Positions 7,816 to 43,974 of a DNA stretch of 43,974 bases are shown piece after piece (positions within the stretch are counted from its first letter, which is position 1; each line of letters opens with the position of its first letter). Made by a program: the position numbers and the translations under genes. The notes below the pieces were generated by a model, which did no database searches, was not told where the DNA came from, and saw only the letters and a program-made list of their open reading frames with translations. Source of the stretch: Candidatus Hydrogenedentota bacterium (GTDB lineage Bacteria; Hydrogenedentota; Hydrogenedentia; Hydrogenedentales; CAITNO01); contig JAAYBR010000081.1 of the NCBI GenBank assembly GCA_012730045.1, positions 1-43,974 on the forward strand. The letters run 5' to 3'.

Positions 7816-7900
7816 AAGACGAGGCAGGCGGGACGCCTGCGGTACGGAAGGCACCCCGCCGGCCCTCTTCGTACCGCAGGCGTCCCGGCGGCCTTGTCTT
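7816..7900. repeat. Inverted repeat of the RRDACGTE type
   Basis: The arms 7816-7848 (containing CAGGCGGGACGCCTGCGGTA) and about 7867-7900 (containing TACCGCAGGCGTCCCGGC) are imperfect inverses. Each arm also contains its own small GGCGGGACGCC palindrome. Translated, they give the RRDACGTE and VPQAS peptides familiar from false genes in many genomes. A diverged relative lies at 12358-12460. Confidence 0.75.
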
Positions 7901-9499: not shown

Positions 9500-9619
9500 C
9501 GCGCGGGCACGCCCGCGCGAAGGAAGGCGGCAGTCTTTCGCGGGAGTCCACATCGTCCACACAGTCCACCCCGTCCACTCTGGACGATGTGGACGATGTG
9601 GACAGGTGGACAGGTGGAC
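9500..9619. repeat. Hairpin followed by inverted GTCCAC / GTGGAC nonamer array
   Basis: A GCGCGGGC-AC-GCCCGCGC hairpin at about 9500-9519 is followed by four GTCCAC-N3 units (starts 9546, 9555, 9564, 9573). After 2 bases come five TGGAC units (9581, 9590, 9599, 9607, 9615). The left arm has period 9; the right arm slips to 8 at its end. The array fills the gap between two convergent genes and could fold into a long imperfect stem in either transcript. Confidence 0.8.
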
Positions 9620-12303: not shown

Positions 12304-12357
12304 CCCGGCGCGCGCCGCCGGATAGATCGGACGCCAAGAAACGGGAAGTTTTGCCCT

Positions 12358-12460
12358 CTTCCGTAGCGCAGGCGTCCCCGCCTGCCCTGTCTTTCATCCA
12401 GCCACCGGTTTGGCTTCCGGCCCGAAGACAAGGCCGCCGGGACGGCGGCGCCACGGAAGG
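12358..12460. repeat. Second inverted repeat of the RRDACGTE type (diverged)
   Basis: The arms 12358-12394 and 12424-12460 both carry a CTTCCGT...GTCTT frame in inverse orientation. They match the 7816-7900 element at GCAGGCGTCCC on one side but have changed to GCCGCCGTCCC on the other. The element lies between divergent genes, so it is not obviously a terminator. Confidence 0.65.
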
Positions 12461-14600: not shown

Positions 14601-14681
14601 GTCCATTTCGTCCATGCTGTCCATGTTGTCCACAGCGCGAACTCCATGGACTGTATGGACGGCATGGACTCTATGGACAGC
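14601..14681. repeat. Inverted nonamer array: four GTCCAY-N3 then four ATGGAC-N3
   Basis: The left arm has units at 14601, 14610, 14619 and 14628. The right arm has ATGGAC units at 14646, 14655, 14664 and 14673. Period is exactly 9 in both arms, separated by 9 bases. A single strand could fold so that each GTCCAT pairs with an ATGGAC while the N3 positions mostly do not pair. It lies 30 bases after the GH3-like stop and 24 bases before the HzsA-like promoter. Confidence 0.9.
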
Positions 14682-17700: not shown

Positions 17701-18379
17701 CTATGTGGCCAAGGCGTCCCACGGCATCGTGCCCGTGGAGCCCGACGGCTCCGCCCGCTTCACCGCCCCGGCGGGGAAGGTGCTCTACTTCTCCGCGCTA
17801 GACGAAAACTACAACGAGCTGCAGCGCATGCGCAGCGTGGTGCAGCTCCAGCCCGGCGAGACGCGCGGCTGCGTGGGCTGCCACGAAAGCCGCCAGCAGG
17901 CCCCGGTCCAGCACCGGCGGCTCCTGGCCCAGGCACCCCGGGCTCTGACCGTCGCCGACTGGGAAGGAAAACCCTTCTCCTACGAGGAGGTGGTCCAGCC
18001 CGTGCTCGACAGGCACTGCGTGTCCTGCCACAACCCGGAGCACCCAAAGGGCCTCGACTACACCGGGGTCCTCGACGCCGACAAGATCCCGGCGTCCTAC
18101 CGCACGCTCATCGAGAAGGGGCTGGTCCACTACGCCGACATGGGCTGGAACTCCGGCGGCTGCGAGAAAATGGAGCCCCTCACCCTCGGCACGCTCAAGA
18201 GCCGCCTGTGGGAGAAGCTCAACGCGGGCCACCAGAAGATCCAGCTCACCCCCGACGAGACCCTGCGCATCAAGACCTGGATAGACCTCAACTGCCCACT
18301 CTGGCCCGACTACAAGAACCGCCTCGAACGTCCCGGCGAGACCGAGCGCCTGGCAAGAAGCGGGGACGGCGGGCGGTAG
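14765..18379 (+). CDS. HzsA-like di-haem c-type cytochrome with discoidin-like N-terminus
   Basis: The 1204-residue exported protein has a signal peptide (CVIVVCLCACAAGTAEP), a discoidin/F5-8C-like region (about 20-180: FVIHQSSVGAACLDELEVYG and HLNDGAYGNDKSWIGG), a central helical part, and a beta-propeller with PD40-like repeats (for example YYHVMSMAPDGSDLKQLTDG). The C-terminal region has two c-type haem sites, CVGCH at 1036-1040 and CVSCH at 1085-1089. The propeller plus paired CxxCH layout resembles the hydrazine synthase alpha-subunit family, which has many members outside anammox bacteria. No beta or gamma hydrazine synthase subunit or other anammox gene is present, so hydrazine synthesis is not implied; a periplasmic redox role is likely. 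AGGAG is 9 bases before the ATG. Confidence 0.85.
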   Translation: MRPAMTFRCVIVVCLCACAAGTAEPAKVYADRPNRISFEPQTAQFVRFVIHQSSVGAACLDELEVYGPDKKVNLAAQPGAEASASACLSGYPQHAVEHLNDGAYGNDKSWIGGDGPGQWAQIRLAAPAEVARVVFSRDRLRDFADRVPTAFEVLLSPDGETWTTAASVTAEAGPVRLRSQGGAPGIPSPPPPPKAAHPASTDDTALDPPHYAFLAEEHAWLKTYGRADLDPRLVPYNGRVKDYPRHRGDDAVPLPELAAAPPLDAPPDGAAWRGASRAVARVAHPYDFDRGPLVEHALRAGCHGGTLCLALRVDRLLSAHVAVLSTPDNGACGVVAVKGNRLVFRDFSEGDPPKEQPVEGRFNRDLTEFSLRLPLAWFPECREKGLRVGLGMGGRHTPADGRPVLLAFAPFALAEESPGGGGFRVRLTAAPGGEMVTLRADDGEGEKTLALRPGASEVLEVAAADGPIGPEATLTVRDAEDREHVLRLFRYDPLARTLALFGDMLDRFEARGLDVKAERAQWDAFARRRAKLTAKGRPDAAALRAAFFEARTAKRALLLRDPEITGIGRLLFVKRNAFEPSHNYSDYFDSAYRPGGGVCLLDIPRDGGRWAPDQARVTELFASGGGIARNPMADFDASRVYFSYRPEEKGYYHVMSMAPDGSDLKQLTDGPFHDLWPCPLPDGDLAVISTRCTARFICWRPQASVLFRMKPDGSEFTPLSFANLTEWATSVMDDGRIIWTRSEYQDKGADFGHTLWAVRPDGTCPELVFGNTIIQPNGYANGRQVPGTKEFSCTLISHFGDLNGPIALVDTGRGRFTRDAITSLTPEVPWPGMWPDNECFREAHPVARDYFLCAHAPRKTFGLYLLDRYGNREALHFDPAISSMCPTPFAARPKPPVLDGGKPVEDAAPETGEFIMQDVYAGLGAAVPRGAVKYLRVAEEVRATLDQMPDGTYRADHPEFQDWYATPVHKVSGPHGWPTYVAKASHGIVPVEPDGSARFTAPAGKVLYFSALDENYNELQRMRSVVQLQPGETRGCVGCHESRQQAPVQHRRLLAQAPRALTVADWEGKPFSYEEVVQPVLDRHCVSCHNPEHPKGLDYTGVLDADKIPASYRTLIEKGLVHYADMGWNSGGCEKMEPLTLGTLKSRLWEKLNAGHQKIQLTPDETLRIKTWIDLNCPLWPDYKNRLERPGETERLARSGDGGR

Positions 18380-18386
18380 TGCCCTT

Positions 18387-18477
18387 GTCCATGGCGTCCA
18401 TGGAGTCCATACCGTCCATGCGCTGACCCGCACGGACCCTCATGGACGATATGGACGCCATGGACGATATGGACCGG
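18387..18477. repeat. Inverted nonamer array: four GTCCAT-N3 then four ATGGAC-N3
   Basis: The left units start at 18387, 18396, 18405 and 18414; the right units at 18442, 18451, 18460 and 18469. Period is exactly 9. The spacer is about 19 bases, longer than in the 14601 element. The copy number per arm and the core are the same as at 14601-14681, and the two elements bracket the HzsA-like gene. Confidence 0.9.
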
Positions 18478-20070: not shown

Positions 20071-20155
20071 GCGGGCATGAGATTGCTTCGCTTCGCTCGC
20101 AATGACGTGTGTTTTCGCGGTCATTGCGAGCGAAGCGAAGCAATCTCGTGCCCGC
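20071..20155. repeat. CERSEAI-type palindrome, copy 1
   Basis: Two 36-base arms, with one mismatch, flank a 13-base loop GTGTGTTTTCGCG. The core TCATTGCGAGCGAAGCGAAG is that of a palindrome common in many bacterial genomes, whose translations give CERSEAI and LLRFARND. Read as DNA the structure is nearly perfect. It lies in the gap between the isomerase and the GH67-like gene. A second copy is at 27427-27506. Confidence 0.93.
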
Positions 20156-27205: not shown

Positions 27206-27426
27206 AACAGATGTTGACGGCATTGTAGGATGTGTTTGCCGTCCAGTTAAGATTTCTCGCACTTTCCAATCGCCGGATGAGAAATGCCCGTTGACACACA
27301 TGAATGACATCGGGGCTTGTGGATCCACGCTGAATGCGTCAGCGGAACGCATTCCCGCTCACCCAGTAGATGGGACGAACCTGAGCCGTTCCGGCAAGAA
27401 ACTGCCCCGTTCGCCGGAGCGTTGGC

Positions 27427-27506
27427 GTGAACGAGATTGCTTCGCTGCGCTCGCAATGACGTGTGTTTTCGCGTCATTGCGAGCGTAGCGAAGCAATCTC
27501 GTTCAC
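27427..27506. repeat. CERSEAI-type palindrome, copy 2
   Basis: Two 34-base arms, with one mismatch, flank the loop GTGTGTTTTCGC, almost the same loop as in copy 1 at 20071-20155. The outer stem has changed on both arms together: GCGGGCATGAG in copy 1 is GTGAACGAG here, and the opposite arm changed to match. This suggests selection or mobility acting on the paired structure. Confidence 0.93.
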
Positions 27507-27572
27507 GGGGCGACCCCGGCTCCTGCAGTGTCCAATCCGGCGATCAAGGGCACTTTGGACAGAACCCCGCCC

Positions 27573-41742: not shown

Positions 41743-43974
41743 TTACCCGCGTCCGGCCCGGGAGACGACGCCCAGCACCACCAGGGACAACGCCCCGAGG
41801 AACAGGTCGCCCAGGCGGCTCTTCAGCGACTCCGTGGACAGGCCGGCCTTGCCGCAGCCGCTGCAGCCGCCGCAGCCGCCCATCTCCAGCTCGCCGCGGT
41901 CGAGCACACCGTCGCCGTTGGCGTCGAGGGCGGCGAACAGGACCGGGGTCATGTTCCAGATCCGCGCGCGCGCCTCAGCGAGGTTCAGCGTGCCGCTGCC
42001 ATCGGCGTCAAGCTCGTCGAACACCTCTGCCAGCAGGTCCCGGGCCGTCCCGGAGGACGCCGGATCCACGCCCAGGGACACCGACAGGGCCACCGGCGTG
42101 CCGGGTTCCGCGAGAACGCGACCCGGAGGATCCTGGCGCACCACCGCGCCCGCGGCGACAACGCTGCTGTATTCCTCCGTGACCGCGCCGGCCACGAAGC
42201 CGGCCGCCGCCAGGGCCGCCTCGGAAGCCGGGCGGGCCATGCCGGTCACGTCCGGAATCTCGACGGCCGTGGGGCGCGCGCCCTTGCTGACCACGAAGCT
42301 CACCGCGGACCCGGCCCCGGCCTCAACGCCGCCGGCGGGATTCTGCGAAATCACCCGGCCCGCCGGGAAGGTTGCGCTGTACTCTTCGGTCACCGTGCCG
42401 ACGACCAGGCGGGCAACGGTGATCGCGCCTTCCGCGGAGGCCCGCGTCAGACCGACCACATTCGGCACCAGGATGGGGGCCGGCCCCTTCGAGAGGACGA
42501 CGCTCACCGCCGTGCCCGGGGCGGCCGGGGTGCCGGCCGGCGGATTCTGGTCGGTGACCAGGCCCGCGGCCAGGATTTCACTGTACGCCTCGGTCACCGT
42601 GCCGAGCGTCAGGCCCGCGGCCGCAAGGGCGGCCTCCGCCTCGGCGCACGTCAGCCCGGCGACATTCGGCACGGGCCGGTCGGAGGCCGGATCCGGACCC
42701 AGGGAGACCTCAAGGGCCACCGCCGTGCCGGCCGCAACTTCCGTGCCCGCAGCCGGCGTCTGGCTCATCACGTTGCCCGCGGGCACCGTGGCGCTGTACG
42801 ACTCCGTCACCGCGCCAAGCGTCAGGCCCGCGCCTGTGAGCGCCGCCTCGGCCGCCGTGCGGGTCAGGCCCACCACATACGGCACCGCAACCGGCGCCGC
42901 ACCCAGCGAAACCTCAAGGGCCACCGCCGTGCCGGCGGCGACTTCTGTGCCCGCAACCGGCGTCTGGCTCATCACGTCGCCCGCAGGCACCGTGGCGCTG
43001 TACGACTCCGTCACCGCGCCAAGCGTCAGGCCCGCGTCCGCAAGCGCCGCCTCCGCGGCCGCCCGCGTCAGGCCCACCACGTTCGGAACCGCAACCGGCG
43101 CCGCACCCAGCGAGACCTCAATGTCCACCGCCGCGCCCGGAAACACTTCCGTGCCCGCAACCGGCGTCTGGCTCATCACGTCGCCCGCAGGCACCGTGGC
43201 GCTGTAGGACTCCGTCACCACGCCAAGCGTCAGGCCCGCGCCCGTGAGCGCCGCCTCGGCGGCGGCCCGCGTCAGGCCGACCACGTTCGGAACGGCCACC
43301 GGCGCCGGACCCAGCGAGACCTCAAGGGCCACCGCCGCGCCCGGAAGCACTTCCGTGCCCGCCGCAGGCGTCTGGCTCATCACGTCGCCCGCGGGCACCG
43401 TGTCGCTGTACGACTCCGTCACCGCGCCGAGCGTCAGGCCCGCGCCCGTGAGCGCCGCCTCGGCGGCGGCCCGCGTCAGGCCCACCACGTCGGGCACGGC
43501 CACCGGCGCCGGACCGAGAGAGACTTCAATGTCCACCGCCGTGTTCGGAAGCACTTCCGTGCCCGCAACCGGCGTCTGGCTCATCACGTCGCCCGCAGGC
43601 ACCGTGGCGCTGTACGACTCCGTCACCGCGCCAAGCGTCAGGCCCGCGCCCGTGAGCGCCGCCTCGGCGGCGGCCTGCGTCAGGCCGACCACGTTCGGAA
43701 CCGCCACCGGCGCCGGACCCAGCGAGACTTCAATGTCCACCGCCGTGTTCGGAAGCACTTCCGTGCCCGCCGCAGGCGTCTGGCTCATCACCTGGCCCGC
43801 CGGGACGGTGTCGCTGTAGGACTCCGTCACCGCGCCAAGCGTCAGGCCCGCGCCCGTGAGCGCCGCCTCGGCGGCGGCCTGCGTCAGGCCCACCACGTCG
43901 GGCACGGCCACCGGCGCCGGACCGAGAGAGACTTCAATGTCCACCGCCGTGTTCGGAAGCACTTCCGTGCCCGC
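41743..43974 (-). CDS. PASTA-repeat surface protein with EF-hands and Cys-rich transmembrane tail (N-terminus outside window)
   Basis: The gene continues past the right edge; 743 codons are visible. Nine PASTA domains are recognisable from their starts (VPDVVGLT, VPNVVGLT, VPYVVGLT, VPNVAGLT, IPDVTGMA and the like), each about 67 residues. The outer six are nearly identical, with a 201-base DNA period. Two EF-hand loops follow, DADGSGTLNLAE and DANGDGVLDRGE. The C-terminus is GGCGGCSGCGKAG, then a hydrophobic helix (LFLGALSLVVLGVV) and SRAGRG. This order of Cys-rich motif, helix and basic end resembles a sorting or anchoring tail. No kinase domain is visible, unlike in the PASTA kinases. It is probably anchored and exposed. 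Calcium binding and wall binding are inference. Confidence 0.87.
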   Translation of the reverse strand, partial: AGTEVLPNTAVDIEVSLGPAPVAVPDVVGLTQAAAEAALTGAGLTLGAVTESYSDTVPAGQVMSQTPAAGTEVLPNTAVDIEVSLGPAPVAVPNVVGLTQAAAEAALTGAGLTLGAVTESYSATVPAGDVMSQTPVAGTEVLPNTAVDIEVSLGPAPVAVPDVVGLTRAAAEAALTGAGLTLGAVTESYSDTVPAGDVMSQTPAAGTEVLPGAAVALEVSLGPAPVAVPNVVGLTRAAAEAALTGAGLTLGVVTESYSATVPAGDVMSQTPVAGTEVFPGAAVDIEVSLGAAPVAVPNVVGLTRAAAEAALADAGLTLGAVTESYSATVPAGDVMSQTPVAGTEVAAGTAVALEVSLGAAPVAVPYVVGLTRTAAEAALTGAGLTLGAVTESYSATVPAGNVMSQTPAAGTEVAAGTAVALEVSLGPDPASDRPVPNVAGLTCAEAEAALAAAGLTLGTVTEAYSEILAAGLVTDQNPPAGTPAAPGTAVSVVLSKGPAPILVPNVVGLTRASAEGAITVARLVVGTVTEEYSATFPAGRVISQNPAGGVEAGAGSAVSFVVSKGARPTAVEIPDVTGMARPASEAALAAAGFVAGAVTEEYSSVVAAGAVVRQDPPGRVLAEPGTPVALSVSLGVDPASSGTARDLLAEVFDELDADGSGTLNLAEARARIWNMTPVLFAALDANGDGVLDRGELEMGGCGGCSGCGKAGLSTESLKSRLGDLFLGALSLVVLGVVSRAGRG
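42690..43974. repeat. Tandem 201-base repeats inside the PASTA gene
   Basis: Six or so units recur at 201-base spacing; the GTTCGGAAGCACTTCC block, for instance, is at about 43548, 43749 and 43950. Blocks are shuffled: alternative versions of the DIEV/ALEV and VLPN/VFPG/VAAG segments occur in different orders, which suggests recombination between units. Confidence 0.85.

Follow-up and report, generated by a model that had tools for sequence, protein, structure and literature searches.

Inverted arrays of nine-base units in Hydrogenedentota and their proposed pairing with an S23-type 4helix_suffix gene

How a bacterial genome comes to hold, between its genes, runs of one hexamer repeated every nine bases and faced by the same runs in inverse is the question raised by the window analysed here, a stretch of 43,974 nucleotides that forms contig C81 of a 4.46-Mb draft Hydrogenedentota genome (G000). 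At 14601–14633 on the plus strand, four units read GTCCAT TTC GTCCAT GCT GTCCAT GTT GTCCAC, and they face four ATGGAC units (GTCCAT on the minus strand) at 14646–14678, all spaced nine bases as the original prediction had it. The same plan was correctly recognised at 18387, where four GTCCAT units on the plus strand (18387–18419), 7 bp downstream of a predicted stop codon at 18379, face four ATGGAC units on the minus strand (18442–18474), again with 9-base spacing. A third array had been described as an exact GTCCAC version; its plus-strand left arm does carry four GTCCAC units at a spacing of 9 (9546–9578), but the four GTGGAC units of its minus-strand right arm (9589–9619) are spaced 9, 8 and 8, so the exactness holds for one arm. 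The reading that only the hexamers pair stands in part: the base preceding the hexamer is usually a pyrimidine, so that pairing can reach past 6 bp, and triplets match across arms slightly more often than expected by chance (44% against 37.5%, p about 0.004). A further array was overlooked, and with it the partnership of arrays with a gene that is the subject of what follows. This array has six GTCCAY units at 103–153 on the plus strand, in frame within the linker of an S23-type gene, where they encode Ser-Ile-Pro repeats.

The arrays are abundant far beyond chance, as a comparison with shuffled sequence proposed at the outset bears out. The whole G000 genome holds 308 three-unit GTCCAY-N3 matches (155 and 153 on the two strands), while the reversed pattern gives 0 and 0. 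Strict runs of three, four and five units number 5, 45 and 11 in 1.30 Mb of this genome, and five Markov-1 copies of the same 1.30 Mb yielded two runs of two units and nothing longer. The corresponding runs in a congener (G008) number 12, 36 and 3, and in both genomes the modal arm has exactly four units. A scan for any hexamer at periods of 7–30 is dominated by ATGGAC/GTCCAT at period 9. A word flanked by units at −9 and +9 is GTCCAY in 94–99% of cases in the genomes read, with a pyrimidine nearly always at the sixth base; because the base preceding the word is mostly a pyrimidine as well, the core approximates to YGTCCAY. GTCCAY arrays occur in 49 of the 68 genomes of the phylum and are mostly non-coding, which agrees with the prediction of a recurrent and apparently undescribed family of intergenic inverted arrays. 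A search of the available literature on GTCCAT arrays, REP reviews and TIGR04258 found nothing relevant. Among G000 contigs C50, C85, C53, C72 and C27 (loci L096, L104, L115, L128 and L088), several start or end in an outward-facing 4+4 array and two carry the same array; assembly therefore seems to break at these repeats.

The genomic setting was compiled for 82 arrays from G000 and G008, some of which are orthologous pairs so that the counts are not all independent, with neighbouring genes called by a purpose-written predictor using a position-specific seed. Four of the 82 were judged coding. Among the 65 arrays with known neighbours, 30 lie between divergent, 23 between co-directional and 12 between convergent genes; the median distance is 28 bp for stop codons and 113 bp for start codons. 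Arms are variously inward-facing, outward-facing or single, single-arm arrays being numerous, and two-arm arrays between divergent genes are outward-facing in 18 of 20 cases. No constant head was found on the array flanks and no T run 3' of the arms in a base table. An intrinsic terminator was rejected on the missing T run and the 30 of 65 arrays between divergent genes, in line with the view that this is not a normal terminator. A coding origin from MDx, WTx or SIx repeats was likewise discarded, as the triplets contain stops and most arrays are intergenic.

The arrays might nevertheless act as hairpins with regular internal loops, in RNA or as cruciform DNA, serving mRNA ends or processing with their sequence incidental. 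Folded as RNA, the three window arrays are predicted to be very stable (z of −7.7, −7.7 and −5.4), with hardly any open triplets in the 18387 array, and eight viral contigs with at least two single-arm GTCCAY/RTGGAC arrays (L234, L311, L316, L301, L233, L323, L296 and L333) keep them on one strand per contig relative to co-directional genes in 8 of 8 cases. Hallmark phage proteins identify several of these array contigs as real phages, with L234 and L233 being Mu-like, and the stretches read showed no S23-type gene. The confinement to a single strand may point to a strand-specific role or to descent of the copies from one founder. Further points for a hairpin are joint T to C changes at the sixth base of both arms in two orthologous arrays, considered below. 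We regard a hairpin role as improbable all the same, given a hexamer that is identical across phyla with no co-variation, the many one-armed arrays, and a commonest setting at divergent promoters rather than gene ends. A terminator role makes little sense for the many arrays that sit between divergent genes. An Rfam search of the window gave no match, which also indicates that it contains no rRNA. A first scan of viral contigs was set aside as proof of phage spread, since 99 of its 179 clusters were collagen-like Gly-Pro-X coding repeats (GGTCCA...).

Comparison of G000 with G008 shows how the arrays evolve in place. If the G000 sequence examined contained the two flanks of a G008 array, an array was almost always present between them. 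The G008 orthologue of the 14601 array retains the hexamers, loop and flanks, with three units in its right arm, and that of the 9546 array has GTCCAT rather than GTCCAC in both arms; at the syntenic place of the 18387 array no array was found and the sequence is different. Across 15 orthologous pairs, in which 85 of 103 units could be aligned, hexamer positions 1–5 are identical at 422 of 425 bases, a constraint somewhat overstated because only units recognised in both genomes enter the counts. Flank identity in the same pairs is 85.6% (1412/1650), and triplet identity is 64.5% (118/183) even though the unit alignment was picked to favour triplets. Units are frequently gained and lost in multiples of nine, and the count often returns to four. 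Such gains and losses, together with a period that is harmless to the reading frame and the few arrays that are coding, would suit an origin by slippage, from neutral short tandem repeats or from once-coding repeats. However, unit number shows a sharp mode at four rather than a falling distribution, the hexamer is nearly frozen while the triplets diverge faster than the flanks, and 4 of 82 arrays were judged coding; slippage of neutral repeats is thus a highly implausible account.

Covariation between the arms had been put forward as a mark of the family. This expectation is not supported, as the hexamer is constant in sequence rather than co-varying. In two arrays (that at 9546 and L093/L175) both arms have undergone the same T to C change at the sixth base, which fits homogenisation as well as pairing; homogenisation accounts equally well for matched sixth bases, since direct copies also agree. 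No arrays were found in a further genome, G011, at the readable places that match those near the window genes, and single sites therefore turn over at the family level. In one G008 locus (L213, near 18171–18694 of C1153), a five-unit G000 array (L097, 13266–13307) has as its counterpart about 0.5 kb that reads, by eye, like a HicB/HicA-type gene pair.

The gene that holds the overlooked array lies at the edge of the window. It is cut by the contig end, leaving its C-terminal part at 2–340 on the plus strand (linker and 4helix_suffix; TIGR04258, E=4.6e-18), with the 4helix_suffix domain at 185–331 on the plus strand matching TIGR04258 positions 1–49. The window protein (P0001) scores 64.9 bits against a cut-off of 40, and the proteins of two loci outside the phylum, L041 and L055, score 60.9 and 67.1. 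In the latter two, TIGR02436 matches the N-domain above its cut-off, and PF05635 matches it weakly, below the gathering score (E=7.5e-7 and 5e-6). An AlphaFold model is all-helical with modest confidence (mean pLDDT 68), and its best Foldseek matches in the PDB are the S23 structures 2gsc and 2rld, both weak (best E 0.04). No nuclease, transposase or polymerase domain was recognised in the S23-4helix_suffix protein. Structures of S23/IVP-type proteins have been available since 2006, and no function is known for them; the Xanthomonas S23 protein forms a homopentamer of four-helix bundles, also of no known function, and the Coxiella intervening sequence has been termed selfish (PMC4990558).

Array and gene keep company in position. 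All four TIGR04258 genes of G000, and a fifth gene with the N-domain only, each have an array nearby, placed within the linker, at the 3' end or immediately past the stop, and the cores of the five all differ (GTCCAY, GTCCGTG, GTCCGAC, GATCCGAC and TCCCAT). In 15 phylum genomes, 24 of 30 TIGR04258 loci have period-9/10 arrays, compared with 26% of random windows from their own genomes; at the other 6 of 30 loci the lag test detected no array. Lag-9/10 array signals over 48 loci number 73 within 200 bp of the gene (43.7 kb) versus 9 farther away (103.9 kb), a 19-fold difference in density. The two also coincide across genomes, with TIGR04258 found in 37 of 49 array-positive and 5 of 19 array-negative phylum genomes by a hand count uncorrected for kinship; in 12 of the 49 array-positive genomes no TIGR04258 match was present.

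An independent approach came from the arrays alone. When 84,980 species genomes were scanned for a 2+2 GTCCAT pattern without regard to gene content, 43 loci emerged, and at two of these, L041 and L055, an S23-type gene touches the array; the start codon of the L041 gene sits inside it. TIGR04258 was found in 11 of 19 searched genomes picked solely by the GTCCAT-array pattern, and in nine of those 11 a GTCCAY array lies in or adjoins the TIGR04258 gene. The nine include Thiosymbion, Acidobacteriales, Planctomycetales, Lentisphaerae and several Verrucomicrobia, and where a genome has several TIGR04258 genes, the remaining genes carry other cores or none. TIGR04258 was not found in 8 of the 19 pattern-picked genomes, where some hits resemble other palindromes; Prosthecobacter (L031) and L070 have true-looking arrays yet lack TIGR04258. 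Some hits of the 2+2 pattern, in WOR-3, Patescibacteria, Clostridium and Solidesulfovibrio, were not counted as members because they resemble palindromes of other kinds or coding sequence.

The partnership extends to lineage. On a quick tree of 49 proteins, built from the N-domain and suffix with the repeat-coded linker excluded (three rows being suffix-only) and labelled with cores by eye, nine core labels require 9 changes, against a minimum of 8 and a shuffled mean of 24.2, with 0 of 200 shuffles as low. An earlier tree of the N-domain only agrees (10 changes, shuffled mean 19.1). All 11 GTCCAY-linked proteins, including that of the window, form one clade (SH-aLRT 83), the RTGGAC clade, with hosts in six phyla: Hydrogenedentota, Verrucomicrobiota, Thiosymbion (Gammaproteobacteria), Acidobacteriales, Planctomycetales and Lentisphaerae. 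GTCCGTG-linked proteins adjoin this clade in the tree, and the labels TATAGGAC and ATGGGA do not form single clades. Arrays and gene are thus partners in position, genome distribution and lineage. Each protein lineage has its own array core, and the array of a gene is found on its 5' side, within its linker or on its 3' side; for GTCCAY, solo arrays with the same core are dispersed between the genes of gene-holding genomes.

A different reading of the same observations is that the arrays are regulatory or insulator sites of an unrelated host protein, and that the S23-type gene often travels along with them or is a gene under their control. Their positions are conserved between congeners, the hexamer is strongly constrained, and the intergenic, commonly divergent setting (30 of 65), outward two-arm arrays (18 of 20) and distance of about 110 bp from start codons would all suit such sites. 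A host site would be expected to track host phylogeny, which the different cores on different S23 lineages, and the union of GTCCAY with a single S23 clade across six phyla, do not do. We therefore disfavour this reading and consider it unlikely, though the most serious of the alternatives.

Cores other than GTCCAY also occur. Further runs of about four units in G000 are built on GTCCGTG-N3 (period 10), TCCCAT-N3, GTCCGAC-N2 and GATCCGAC-N, GTCCGTG arrays occur in 23 of 68 phylum genomes, and arms of different GTCC cores are paired at L095 and L087. Other members of the protein family carry GTCCGTG, GATCCG, TCCCAT and GTCCTTT. Candidate cores adjoin 4helix_suffix genes at L406 (2118–2235) and L393 (951–1074), of a period-10 GAGGGC/GCCATCG type and a GGTCCTAT type. 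Separate repeat families are also seen in the window. Two near-perfect 36-bp inverted repeats (GAGATTGCTTCGC...GCGAAGCAATCTC) lie at 20071–20155 and 27426–27507, and copies of the former recur many times in G008 as a separate dispersed palindrome family. Palindromes centred on CGCAGGCGTCCCGCCTGC occupy 7816–7900 and 12344–12459, the latter stretch having matches at many places in G008 and G011. At 42693–43974, a 204-bp sequence is repeated six times in tandem, the copies being 91% alike, in a predicted gene that runs off the window end.

On balance we favour a model in which arrays and protein are probably the two parts of a REP-RAYT-like pair, with the arrays acting in cis and the S23/IVP-type protein with its 4helix_suffix in trans; the window gene at 2–340 is proposed as the trans-acting partner of the GTCCAY arrays. 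The S23-4helix_suffix protein, probably oligomeric as its S23 relatives are, would recognise the repeated core (YGTCCAY for the window lineage) on DNA or on a transcript; the triplets would serve as spacers, and the preferred footprint would be about four units. We infer both this recognition and a step by which arrays spread; recognition would explain the fixed cores, the free triplets and the constant unit number. Weighing against the model are the lack in the protein of any recognised nuclease, transposase or polymerase domain that could drive spreading, the modest confidence of the structural match, the six phylum loci without an array by the lag test, the array-bearing genomes in which TIGR04258 was not found, and the phage contigs whose single-arm arrays come with no S23 gene in the sequence read. 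Dispersed arrays may be non-autonomous, REP-like copies retained between genes, some perhaps taken over as sites at gene boundaries, and the element may have diversified into lineages that each use a core of their own, repeated about four times in units of 9 or 10 bases. The wider proposition, of an undescribed class of element that crosses phyla, in which a core-reading protein of many lineages has seeded cognate arrays and perhaps some boundary sites, strikes us as evenly poised. The original prediction had offered a repeated protein-binding site or an RNA stem with regular bulges. The former fits better, as the fixed hexamer and many single arms speak against a purely structural RNA, and the gene-array partnership explains the family better than either option alone.

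The strict link between the 4helix_suffix branch and a readable repeat code provides a direct and cheap handle on S23/IVP function. If each protein binds its own core, bacteria would possess a second solution of the REP-RAYT kind, unrelated to the first, and a natural set of recognition specificities in the protein-core pairs. The model, if true, would also account for a visible share of the intergenic repeats in metagenome assemblies of Hydrogenedentota and Verrucomicrobia, and for contig breaks at arrays in those assemblies.

Among known systems, CRISPR and TIGR arrays differ in their dimensions, the present arrays having a constant part of 6–7 nt, spacers of 2–3 nt and about four units, and the exclusion of CRISPR in the original prediction was sound. 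MPTR repeats of Mycobacterium also combine a constant core with a variable spacer in short direct arrays, as coding repeats of PPE genes; the arrays described here share the core-and-spacer design and are instead mostly intergenic and inverted. The protein resembles the S23/IVP proteins of 23S rRNA intervening sequences through a distant N-domain match and a similar predicted fold (2gsc, 2rld), and is distinguished by its additional 4helix_suffix domain, its repeat-coded linker and arrays outside rRNA. At the two plus-strand array loci read outside the phylum, the gene adjoins its arrays among other genes rather than lying in a 23S rRNA intervening sequence. PF05635 has been noted to resemble Avd of diversity-generating retroelements (PMC10053308), and the predicted Avd-like fold of the array protein is suggestive of the same relationship. 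As in those retroelements, the triplets beside constant cores vary fast, although such change need not be targeted.

The closest parallel in behaviour is REP-RAYT, in which repeats flank their cognate gene and repeat types have diversified in step with protein lineages (Nunvar et al. 2010, PMC2817692). A literal version of that parallel would make the arrays a miniature element that a conventional transposase (a RAYT or another) mobilises and that carries the S23-type gene as cargo. The patchy distribution over phyla, near-identical copies with common loops in Thiosymbion and the frequency of Y1 transposases in the phylum are compatible with this. Nevertheless, the arrays have no constant ends and no fixed orientation of flanking arms, single arms are common, and positions are kept nearly always where both flanks are found in the congener; PF01797, frequent in the phylum, does not track the arrays and is frequent in array-negative genomes too. 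We accordingly think an ordinary transposon very unlikely. Returning to the pairing of array and S23-type protein, its repeats lack the GTAG or CGTC head or tag on a 20–40 bp imperfect palindrome that marks REP elements, and its gene is TIGR02436-like with TIGR04258 rather than a Y1 tyrosine transposase, in keeping with the claim that these are not REP elements. The protein would be an S23/Avd-like helical bundle without a transposase domain, and its repeat strings together about four 9-base units, each a core and a free triplet, in arms that are single, inward or outward. Judged from sequence, neither repeat nor protein is homologous to REP-RAYT. The likeness is one of working and not of membership: as with BIMEs and REPINs, palindromic repeats in high copy are dispersed mostly between genes, a cognate gene stands beside its own repeats, and the array core co-diversifies with the protein lineage.
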